Positions 21,210 to 23,969 of a DNA stretch of 64,000 nt are shown here, one piece after another. The translations under genes and the position numbers were made by a program. Within the stretch, counting starts at the first letter, position 1, and the number at the start of each line of letters is the position of its first letter. The DNA comes from Rubellicoccus peritrichatus. Its GTDB lineage: Bacteria > Verrucomicrobiota > Verrucomicrobiia > Opitutales > Cerasicoccaceae. The notes beneath the pieces were generated by a model. That model was not told the origin of the DNA. It did no database searches and saw only the letters and a program-made list of their open reading frames with translations. The DNA is taken from the NCBI RefSeq assembly GCF_033100135.1, contig NZ_CP136920.1:2165001-2229000 (forward strand). The letters are read 5' to 3'.

Positions 21210-21291
21210 AATTGCCACCAAGACGTCAAGGCCACAGGGTTCGTTATAGTGATGATAAGTTTTTCTTAACTGATTGCCTCTGTGGCAAACC
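21210..21291. repeat. Degenerate repeat words upstream of queA
   Basis: The acs-queA divergent gap has a GCCACCAAGACGTCAAGGCCAC word at about 21216-21237 and CTCTGTGGCAAACCAC at about 21279-21294. These belong to the same vocabulary as the long inverted repeat at 22441-22624 on the other side of queA. They look like a decayed copy of a dispersed element. The queA promoter must also lie here. Confidence 0.35.
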
Positions 21292-21350
21292 ACATCACCT
21301 TTGATTGCGCTTGACTCGCATCCGTCAGTTTGGCGGCTTCCATGCTGTCA

Positions 21351-22436
21351 ATGAAAACGGCTGCACTTGATTTCCACCTTCCACCTGAGTTGATTGCGCA
21401 GGAGCCTGCTGCGCGAAGAGACGAGTCGCGTTTATTGGTCGTCGATCGTTCAAATGGGAAGATCGAGCATGCGGTCTTTAAGGATTTGCCAAACTTTCTG
21501 CCTCAGCCTTGTCGGCTGTTTCGCAACAACGCCACGGTTTTTAAAGCGCGTCTGCGTGGACGACGTGATGGCGGTGGAGCGGTTGAATGCCTATTGCTCG
21601 AACCAGGAGTGGAGCCTGGTCTTTTCTGGTGCCTGTTACGTCCGGGTAAACGATTACAGCCGGGAAAGTCTTTCACTTTGGGGCTAGGCGAAGCGACTTG
21701 CCAGGTCGTTAATAAAAACGACGAAGGCGAATATCTCGTTAAGTTCCTGGAGAATGATGAAGTGGTTGATCCTTTGGACGTAGCCGAACGCTTTGGGGAA
21801 ATGCCCTTACCACCTTACATCGAACGCGGCTCGGGTGAAGACCATCGGTTACAGGATCTTGATCCAACACGCTACCAAACGGTCTATGCTGATCCACAAA
21901 ACCGTGTTGCTGCTGCCGCACCTACTGCAGGGCTTCATTTCACTCCGGAGTTATTCAAACAGCTCGAGATTGGTGGATCACGTTTTTATGATCTTACCTT
22001 ACACGTCGGTCTCGGCACCTTTCAACCTGTCTCGGTGGATGACTTGAATGACCATCACATTCATGAGGAGTTTTATTCGATTCCGTCGGAAACAGTTGCG
22101 GCACTAAAGCCGGATGCGTCTGGCGGCCCAAGGGTGATGGTTGGCACGACATCAGTCCGATCAGCAGAAGACTTTGCCAAAAAAAATAAATCTTACGAGG
22201 GCGGCACATGGTCGACACGAGCAGATCTTTTCATCCGTCCGCCTTTTGATTTTCAAGTCACGGACCATCTGATCACCAACTTCCATCTGCCACGCTCAAC
22301 CCTGCTTTGCCTCGTGGCATCATTTCTTGATCCCAAAGACGAAACCGGACTCGAACAACTGAAAGCCATCTATGCCGAGGCAATTGAGCAGCGTTATCGT
22401 TTTTTCAGTTACGGTGATGCGATGCTGATTTTGTGA
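21351..22436 (+). CDS. queA: S-adenosylmethionine:tRNA ribosyltransferase-isomerase
   Basis: This 361-aa enzyme moves the ribosyl part of SAM onto 7-aminomethyl-7-deazaguanine in tRNA, forming epoxyqueuosine. Conserved segments are LPPELIAQEPAARRDESRLLVVDR at the start, RLFRNNATVFKARLRG, LPPYIERGSGEDHRLQDLDPTRYQTVYA and VAAAAPTAGLHFTPELF, then LHVGLGTFQPV and ITNFHLPRSTLLCLV near the end. All are usual QueA signatures. Three starts are possible (TTG 21330, ATG 21342, ATG 21351). The last gives the typical N-terminus, but no strong ribosome-binding site decides it. It converges on an FAD protein gene across a long inverted repeat. Confidence 0.94.
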   Translation: MKTAALDFHLPPELIAQEPAARRDESRLLVVDRSNGKIEHAVFKDLPNFLPQPCRLFRNNATVFKARLRGRRDGGGAVECLLLEPGVEPGLFWCLLRPGKRLQPGKSFTLGLGEATCQVVNKNDEGEYLVKFLENDEVVDPLDVAERFGEMPLPPYIERGSGEDHRLQDLDPTRYQTVYADPQNRVAAAAPTAGLHFTPELFKQLEIGGSRFYDLTLHVGLGTFQPVSVDDLNDHHIHEEFYSIPSETVAALKPDASGGPRVMVGTTSVRSAEDFAKKNKSYEGGTWSTRADLFIRPPFDFQVTDHLITNFHLPRSTLLCLVASFLDPKDETGLEQLKAIYAEAIEQRYRFFSYGDAMLIL

Positions 22437-22440
22437 CTTA

Positions 22441-22624
22441 TTTGGACACAGAGAGCACAGAGGAGGCACAGAGAACACGGAGTCTTAATCTATCTATTGT
22501 GACATTGTAATCGGTGCATAGAATATTTAAATTCACGTATCTCTCAGCATGACAATCACAGCTTTCAAATTCTCGATACCATCTCCGTAATCTCTGTGCC
22601 TCCTCTGTGCTCTCTGTGTCCAAA
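22441..22624. repeat. Long inverted repeat of CACAGAG/CTCTGTG type
   Basis: Left arm 22441-22474 and right arm 22591-22624 are perfect reverse complements over 34 bp, and another ACGGAG block extends the pairing to about 42 bp (22441-22482 and 22583-22624). The arms are made of repeated CACAGAG/GCACAGAGG words. The loop is about 100 bp and not coding. There is no T-run beside either arm, so it is not an ordinary intrinsic terminator, though it sits exactly between the stops of two convergent genes. Repeats with these words occur in many PVC and other genomes. Confidence 0.85.
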
Positions 22625-22630
22625 ACTACG

Positions 22631-23845
22631 TCACGCCATCGCCATACCTGCAAGGTAGCCAGTGGTCCAGGCGGACTGTAAATTGTAGCCACCCGTGATT
22701 CCGTCGATGTCGAGGGTTTCGCCGGCGAAGTAAAGCCCCGGGACTTTACGGCTTTCCATTGTTTTGAAGTTTACCTCCTTAAGGCTGACACCTCCACAGG
22801 TAACGAACTCTTCTTTGTTTGTACTTTTTCCAGTGACTTCAAATGAGCCGCAGAAGAGTTCATCAACGAGTGCACGTTCCTGGCTTTTAGGTAAGTGGCT
22901 CCAACGTTGCTCGCGGGATATTCCAGCTGCCTGAACAAGCCGTTCCCAAAGACGGGATGGGATATCGAAAGCTGGATTTGAGGCGACCAGTTTTTTGGCC
23001 CAATCCTGACGAAGCGTCTTTAGTTTAGATTGGATGGCTTCGCGGTTTTCGATTGAAGTCCAGTTGATGCGGATCGAGAAATGATAATCCTTTTCCGCCA
23101 GCTCTCTTGCCCCCCATGCCGAGAGCTTCAGAATTCCGGGTCCACTCAAGCCCCAGTGTGTAATGAGAACCGGGCCGGTGTTTGTCAGTTTGGTTCCTGG
23201 AATTGAAATCGTGCCCGTTGGAACTGAAATGCCGGCGAGTCCGTCAATTCGAGCATCATCAATGTTAAAAGTAAATAGTGACGGAGCCAACGGAGTGATA
23301 GTATGGCCAAGTGCTTCGATGCTTTCCACGAGAGTGCCGTTTTTCAGTCCACCAATCGCAACCAGAACTTGGTCCGCCGGATGGACTTCTCCTGATGCAC
23401 TGATCGTAAAGCCGTTGTCTTTCTGGTGAAGAGTGGATACCCGGGATCGAAGTTCGGTTTGAATGTCCAGCTTTTCCGCTTCATTGACAAGGCAGTCGAT
23501 GATGGTTTGCGAATTGTCTGTTGTGGGAAAAATACGACCATCGGCTTCCGTTTTGAGAGTGACTCCGCGATCGGCAAACCAGTCAATTGTATCCTGAGGC
23601 TGCCATGCATAGAACGGGCCACGGAGCGTGCGCTGGCCACGGGGATAGGCTTCGATTAAAGCAATGGGGTCATAACAGGCGTGAGTTACATTGCAGCGTC
23701 CGCCACCGGATATTCCGACTTTTGTCAGAACACGTGAGCTTGCTTCCAGAATAGTAACATCCGCTTGCGGATTCTGCGCCTTGCAGGTCAGGGCTGCAAA
23801 GAAACCGGCCGCTCCACCGCCAACGATGATAATGCGTTTGCTCAT
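22631..23845 (-). CDS. HI0933-type NAD(P)/FAD-dependent oxidoreductase
   Basis: This 404-aa flavoprotein has a Rossmann FAD-binding motif IIIVGGGAAGFFAALTC at the very start and the family-specific KVGISGGGRCNVTHACYD (about 50-66). The closing motifs FVTCGGVSLKEVNFKTME and VPGLYFAGETLDIDGITGGYNLQ are diagnostic of the HI0933/YhiN group. Substrate and role are unknown for the family. An open frame extends 22 codons further upstream, but the FAD motif and the ATG at 23845 fix the start. It is convergent with queA. Confidence 0.9.
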   Translation of the reverse strand: MSKRIIIVGGGAAGFFAALTCKAQNPQADVTILEASSRVLTKVGISGGGRCNVTHACYDPIALIEAYPRGQRTLRGPFYAWQPQDTIDWFADRGVTLKTEADGRIFPTTDNSQTIIDCLVNEAEKLDIQTELRSRVSTLHQKDNGFTISASGEVHPADQVLVAIGGLKNGTLVESIEALGHTITPLAPSLFTFNIDDARIDGLAGISVPTGTISIPGTKLTNTGPVLITHWGLSGPGILKLSAWGARELAEKDYHFSIRINWTSIENREAIQSKLKTLRQDWAKKLVASNPAFDIPSRLWERLVQAAGISREQRWSHLPKSQERALVDELFCGSFEVTGKSTNKEEFVTCGGVSLKEVNFKTMESRKVPGLYFAGETLDIDGITGGYNLQSAWTTGYLAGMAMA

Positions 23846-23969
23846 GTTTGAGGTGACTCTGGTGATAAGATTAGTTTTAATTGGGCCAAGAGAAATCTTT
23901 TGTATGCCCACCTTTTGTGTTTAGCAGAATGTAGTTGCGGCTTGGGCGAGGGTTGGTTGCCATGGCCGC

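Follow-up and report, generated by a model that had tools for sequence, protein, structure and literature searches.

What kind of sequence occupies the gap between queA and the convergent flavoprotein gene next to it in Rubellicoccus peritrichatus, and what could have placed it there, are the questions raised by this locus. The window (the whole stretch of DNA analysed, 64,000 nucleotides in length) comprises positions 2165001 – 2229000 of the 5.80-Mb single-contig genome, and the intergenic gap between the two genes, from stop codon to stop codon, is filled by one large inverted repeat. The features concerned are, in window coordinates:

21211 – 21291, no strand: possible one-armed relic of the repeat family (subfamily A); right end TTTGCCACAGAGGCA at 15/15 positions, left arm at chance level
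21330 – 22436, + strand: queA ORF (NF001140, TIGR00113), the stop codon of which ends 4 bp ahead of the element
22441 – 22482, + strand: left arm of the element (subfamily B), with TTTGGA followed by the words CACAGAG, CACAGAG, CACAGAG and CACGGAG at spacings of 9-11-9, including a GAGG spacer
22483 – 22582, no strand: loop of 100 bp, in which tblastn detected no remnant of a GxxExxY gene (see below)
22583 – 22624, - strand: right arm, carrying the left-arm words on the opposite strand, the innermost being degenerate
22631 – 23911, - strand: gene for a FAD-binding enzyme (flavoprotein) of the TIGR00275 family, with its stop codon 6 bp beyond the element

A repeat search of the window returned arms of 42 nt each, 95% complementary and 100 nt apart, and inspection of the sequence shows that their outer 34 bp pair perfectly. 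Each arm is itself an array of words, laid out as CACAGAG NN CACAGAG GAGG CACAGAG NN CACGGAG. In both the repeat search and the fold, the terminal inverted repeats form a single stem, and the predicted RNA fold of the element (-90.3 kcal/mol) is far more stable than that of 200 dinucleotide shuffles (-39.1 ± 3.9; z = -13.2). With two mismatches allowed, the two-word CACAGAG pattern has four matches in the window, compared to 0.46 expected, and all four (4/4) lie inside the element. The sequence-only reading, which had described a large inverted repeat of CACAGAG words between convergent genes, with internally repetitive arms that are perfect over 34 bp (about 42 bp with mismatches), a 100-bp loop and no T-tract, is borne out in each of these points, and the repeat is real at 22441 – 22624. 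On inspection, no T-tract was seen on either side of the stem, on either strand, and a Rho-independent terminator was rejected because the stem lacks a T run.

It had also been suggested that queA is framed by pieces of the same family, as related words occur at 21210 – 21291. The right end of that region agrees with the family terminus TTTGCCACAGAGGCA at 15/15 positions, but its inverted repeat is no better than chance, 171 of 500 random 100-bp windows scoring equally high, so that it can be no more than a one-armed relic. The framing of queA is therefore weak, one terminus standing and the inverted repeat falling away. Relatives are too distant for an empty-site comparison beside queA.

The arms are far from unique to this site. 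The pattern CACAGAGNNCACAGAG, with at most one mismatch, has 88 matches in the genome compared to one for the reversed pattern, which supports the earlier suggestion of a dispersed, possibly mobile repeat family and is the opposite of a single-copy sequence. In a genome-wide arm search (97 of 100 arms, those of at least 15 bp, being retained), these matches resolved into 73 word-array loci, 22 of them pairs, in every case facing and never outward; the loops of these pairs are 8 – 180 bp in length. By simple ORF calling, 45 of the loci are in co-directional gaps, 10 in convergent and 9 in divergent gaps, 3 are at stretch edges, and 6 of the 73 lie inside ORFs, i.e. the family is multi-copy and mostly extragenic. 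Of the two main arm types, type A has TTTGCC and three words at a spacing of 8 – 9, and type B, to which the window element belongs, has TTTGGA or TTAGGA and four words at 9-11-9; the leaders seen in the flanks of family arms are TTTGGA, TTTGCC and TTAACC. The gene-less copies at 1680764 and 4639645 align edge to edge (172 bp, 80%), as do those at 2501633 and 4836097 (168 bp, 87%), with differing flanks in both cases. Since several copies align in this way, loops included, within unrelated flanks, the gene-less elements disperse as units.

Hairpins of this kind could instead be useful to the host, as transcript ends, mRNA stabilisers or decouplers, selection having produced or retained them where they are, without mobility. 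The many loci that lie directly after stop codons, the strong RNA fold of the window element and its position exactly between convergent genes would all agree with such a role, but copies with homologous loops occur at different places, 9 of the 73 loci lie between divergent genes, and the T-tract is absent, all of which makes it an unlikely explanation.

The reading preferred here, with a probability of about 0.6, is that the inverted repeat of the window belongs, as a gene-less (non-autonomous) copy, to a family of mobile hairpins whose gene-bearing form encodes a GxxExxY protein (PF13366, TIGR04256). The R. peritrichatus genome carries six full copies of GxxExxY and one fragment, and inverted word arrays flank 6/6 of the full genes. 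Gene-bearing cassettes are about 430 – 500 bp in size and, like the gene-less elements, have two facing arms of near-identical 7-bp words at a rhythm of 8 – 11 bp; each of the six here has its own word (CACGGAG, CGCAAAG, CACAGAT-like, CGGGAAG, CACAAAA and CACAAAG, assigned by eye). In the cassette at 5225722 – 5226069, CACAAAG words follow the 9-11-9 rhythm of the window element on both sides, with the spacer GAGG (as in the window element) in the left arm and CAGG in the right. Gene-bearing and gene-less elements within one genome thus have ends in common, though the word differs. In another genome of the phylum, G004, the arms of a gene-less hairpin (L161) are almost identical to those of a GxxExxY cassette (L137). 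The GxxExxY family is carried by the gene-bearing cassettes, the window element being gene-less, and tblastn found no GxxExxY remnants in the gene-less loops of the R. peritrichatus genome.

The arms were assessed more widely by aligning the 180 bp upstream of each GxxExxY gene to the reverse complement of the 180 bp downstream, with 451 shifted windows from the same loci as controls. The 77 loci comprise 6 from R. peritrichatus, 12 from named MAGs, 54 from a sample of the phylum and 5 from plasmid records (5 of 8 plasmid matches). Those of the phylum sample are the best-scoring places and 24 further ones rather than a random draw (50, as 30 + 20 chosen, from more than 150 listed places, and 4 others), and the statistics are exclusive of the GxxExxY fragment (L037) and a cut-off named locus (L129). 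The median arm score is 21.5, compared to 10.0 for the controls; 70/77 loci exceed the 95% control level (own genome 6/6, named 10/12, phylum sample 50/54, plasmid 4/5) and 63/77 the 99% level, with 7/77 having no inverted repeat above control level. The named and plasmid loci include Desulfobacterota, Planctomycetota, Myxococcota, Bacteroidota, Gemmatimonadota and Sphingomonas, some phyla being assigned from record titles. When the upstream flank of one locus was paired with the downstream flank of another (376 pairs), the median fell at 10.0, indicating that an upstream arm matches the downstream arm of its own cassette; arms are alike within an element and not between elements. Neighbouring genes within 250 bp are on the same strand as GxxExxY in 50/57 cases upstream and 49/64 downstream, and the cassettes mostly ride in operons in the reading direction.

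The AlphaFold2 model of the protein is a confidently predicted small domain (pLDDT 95.9, pTM 0.88), and D63, E73, K75 and Q87 are invariant in 41 GxxExxY sequences, which is the PD-(D/E)XK pattern. Foldseek returned weak matches for the model, the best being SSO0001 (E = 0.012), a Cas4-type nuclease, followed by an alkaline exonuclease and, further down, the R2 retrotransposon protein. Judged from the invariant residues and from a dN/dS of ~0.1 among the genes of three cassettes (L121, L123 and L124), the predicted nuclease is under selection.

The same three cassettes, which come from the MAGs of three sulfate reducers, share ~91% identity as far as their ends, from GCTCACGCAAAGG to CTTTGCGTGAGA, and have non-homologous flanks; another pair, L146 and L185, is 88% identical, also in unrelated flanks. 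The number of words varies among L121, L123 and L124, and this, as well as arms that match within and not between elements, is what might be seen if each hairpin had grown de novo at its own site, by slippage and template switching between arms, so that word identity would reflect mutation rather than transposition. Such an origin is very unlikely given the 91% identical cassettes in unrelated flanks, the loops shared between copies, and the recurrence of the same words and leader (TTTGCC or TTTGGA) at many sites of one genome.

Gain and loss of these elements can be followed at one junction, between gatA and gatB, in 20 parsed species of one genus (loci L205 – L254; word states assigned by eye; the set is without G002 and G029, which were unparsed, G003, G005, G007, G009 and others, which were not entered, and G231, which has no locus). 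Two species have GxxExxY cassettes with CACAGAG words, nine have gene-less word hairpins (CACGAAA, GTAGCGAG, CTCCAAGC, CACGGAA or CACGAAT), four are empty, and five have other inserts, either non-palindromic or GC-rich, of 85 – 97 bp. At empty sites the two genes overlap by 1 – 4 bp; the inserts begin directly after the gatA stop codon and part it from the gatB start, and a TGA/ATGA duplication fits this arrangement, for which selection is an explanation too. Three times in the gene tree an empty species has a filled one as its sister, and a species with GxxExxY groups as sister to one with a hairpin. Such differences in presence between sister species also speak against immobile hairpins preserved for host use. 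R. peritrichatus has a gene-less CACAGAG hairpin at its own gatA/gatB junction, a site that holds a GxxExxY cassette in two members of its family. For two pairs of genomes with GxxExxY at the same site (G153/G183 and G004/G008), synonymous sites have reached saturation in the cassette gene, with a dS of 0.39 – 0.74 in its flanks, which would suit repeated insertion, though the genes are short. From these sequence comparisons, the family to which the GxxExxY cassettes belong is very probably mobile.

The gatA/gatB junction is a hot spot, at which sister species carry different word hairpins or GxxExxY. The gene-less inserts of five genomes (G234, G222, G108, G223 and G235) contain a short ATG-started ORF that ends in the ATGA of gatB, which may be a chance occurrence or may keep translation coupled.

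At the genome level, 193 genomes of the phylum, all at least 90% complete, were scored for GxxExxY (109/193) and for the exact two-word repeat pattern (54/193). Both occur in 53 genomes, the repeat only in 1, GxxExxY only in 56 and neither in 83 (Fisher p = 1.8e-15, uncorrected for phylogeny or genome size); the repeat is thus present in 53/109 genomes with GxxExxY vs 1/84 without. The 56/109 GxxExxY genomes in which the exact pattern is missing may have other words in its place. Two other genes were also frequent among the 54 repeat genomes, with weaker odds than GxxExxY: S23p (52/54, p = 9e-6) and the RAYT-type gene Y1_Tnp (49/54, p = 5e-4), both p values being uncorrected for shared ancestry. 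Gene-less copies can lie far from gene-bearing ones, as in viral contigs no GxxExxY gene lies within 800 bp of any of 43 CACAGAG sites (several on duplicate contigs). Plasmids and phages were rejected as vehicles: of 72,556 plasmid records just 8 contain GxxExxY, and of 50,697 phage records none.

A REP-associated tyrosine transposase had been proposed as the partner, and a REP/BIME-type family mobilised by such a RAYT would also consist of dispersed, mostly intergenic palindromes in a genome with Y1_Tnp genes. This expectation failed: of the three Y1_Tnp matches in the R. peritrichatus genome none (0/3) has CACAGAG arms, and 5/54 repeat-bearing genomes (G001, G004, G050, G110, G182) are devoid of any Y1_Tnp match. 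In addition, neither the GTAG nor the CGTC tag by which REPs are defined (PMC3733652) is present at the arm ends in the family arm flanks of this genome. RAYT/REP membership was rejected on these three counts, mobilisation by a RAYT is highly improbable, and the partner that fits the hairpin family is the GxxExxY PD-(D/E)XK nuclease. The resemblance to REP/REPIN sequences and RAYTs is one of plan, in that a genome with short palindromes dispersed near gene ends also has a partner gene for a small single-domain nuclease, but here that gene is of the PD-(D/E)XK rather than the HUH tyrosine transposase type, and the arms are untagged word arrays of changeable sequence. The best of the three Y1_Tnp matches, a RAYT-like gene at 2542337 – 2542678, is accompanied by a separate set of long inverted repeats (~80 bp) that bear no relation to CACAGAG.

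GxxExxY is not the only gene found between inverted word arrays. Dispersed genes for S23p (TIGR02436, the rRNA intervening-sequence protein), examined in protein-coding regions of the same phylum (L255 – L284, L041 and L042; n = 32), have inverted arrays above the 95% control level in 25/32 cases, with words such as AGTGGCT, TAGGCAAT, AGACCTG and GCTTAGA. CRCNRAN arrays on both sides were found at 45/77 GxxExxY loci (controls 1/451) and at 0/32 S23p loci (controls 0/192), so that the hairpin format is common to both and each gene has its own set of words. S23p is similar to Avd, a diversity-generating retroelement protein.

The same format around the unrelated S23p fits a passenger role for either gene. 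The hairpin itself could be the mobile unit, moved by other host or trans-acting machinery (e.g. RNA-templated copying), with GxxExxY and S23p as alternative loop passengers or regulators. Gene-less hairpins far outnumber gene-bearing ones, in keeping with this, and an element of G004 (L160:1440 – 1860) has CACAGAG arms around an open frame of 105 aa, for which no Pfam match reached the cut-off and which might be a third passenger gene. Against this, the lexicons sort by gene, which is not expected of a neutral passenger, and 53/54 repeat genomes encode GxxExxY; the explanation is considered possible with the odds against it.

Under the preferred reading, of a gene-less member of a GxxExxY-encoding family, the nuclease might recognise or cut the hairpin, as a DNA cruciform, as a single strand or during RNA-templated copying, and would move its own cassette and, in trans, the gene-less elements into gaps between genes. 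The arms would fold in the transcript too, and insertions between co-transcribed genes would for this reason be tolerated. That GxxExxY is the moving enzyme is put forward at only a little short of an even chance.

Because such hairpins bracket GxxExxY in this and many other genomes, the family seems to be a mobile element of a type not yet described and not a usual REP. Full-text searches of the literature (exclusive of subscription papers and preprints) found, among the matches listed, no description of a CACAGAG-type family and no link between GxxExxY and flanking repeats; PMC8934634 mentions GxxExxY beside a reverse transcriptase. A parallel can be drawn with the intervening sequences of 23S rRNA, described in PMC4990558 as inverted-repeat hairpins of ~430 – 450 nt around a short ORF, and called selfish, that of Coxiella having a 28-bp stem around S23p. 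The hairpin around a short ORF is shared with the present elements, and the dispersed S23p genes have similar arms, but the family described here lies in gaps between protein genes, the window element being in the queA/flavoprotein gap and not within a 23S rRNA gene, and contains GxxExxY or no gene at all. For 20 GxxExxY loci, no exact empty sites as rRNA insertions, and no Rfam matches, were found.

MITEs and other small palindromic elements, among them Correia elements, the cyanobacterial SDR and RPE, are, like the CACAGAG hairpins, gene-less inverted repeats with a presumed trans-acting partner. Unlike all of these, no transposase partner was found for the CACAGAG family, its arms are internally repetitive, and it has no fixed terminal sequence.

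A broader proposal, plausible but tentative and somewhat under an even chance, is that these elements represent an undescribed mobile class with ends set by rhythm and not by sequence: two arrays that face each other, built of words that can stand in for one another and are rewritten jointly in the two arms, would enclose one of two unrelated genes (the GxxExxY nuclease or the four-helix S23p), each with its own lexicon, and the gene-less hairpins would be their parasites. If so, rRNA intervening sequences would be special cases, and the widespread GxxExxY would gain a function. That words differ between elements and are nevertheless matched between arms raises the question of whether gene conversion, template switching or selection for pairing is responsible. 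The role of GxxExxY (TIGR04256), present in 109/193 genomes of the phylum and in several other phyla, is not given in the literature searched; with the gene located in mobile hairpin cassettes, its function becomes open to direct testing, and the puzzling repeats of the CACAGAG type acquire a possible origin and are tied to the old question of where rRNA intervening sequences and S23p came from.

Two further features of the R. peritrichatus copies may be added. CACAGAG loci near 288510 and 4455676, and near 938633 and 2409006, share 785 – 922 bp at ~83% identity, which exceeds the length of the hairpins. At other loci (e.g. 1226278, 1264078, 3500248 and 5530477), CACAGAG arms are followed by CGCAGAT or CGCAAAG arrays, forming composite or nested elements.
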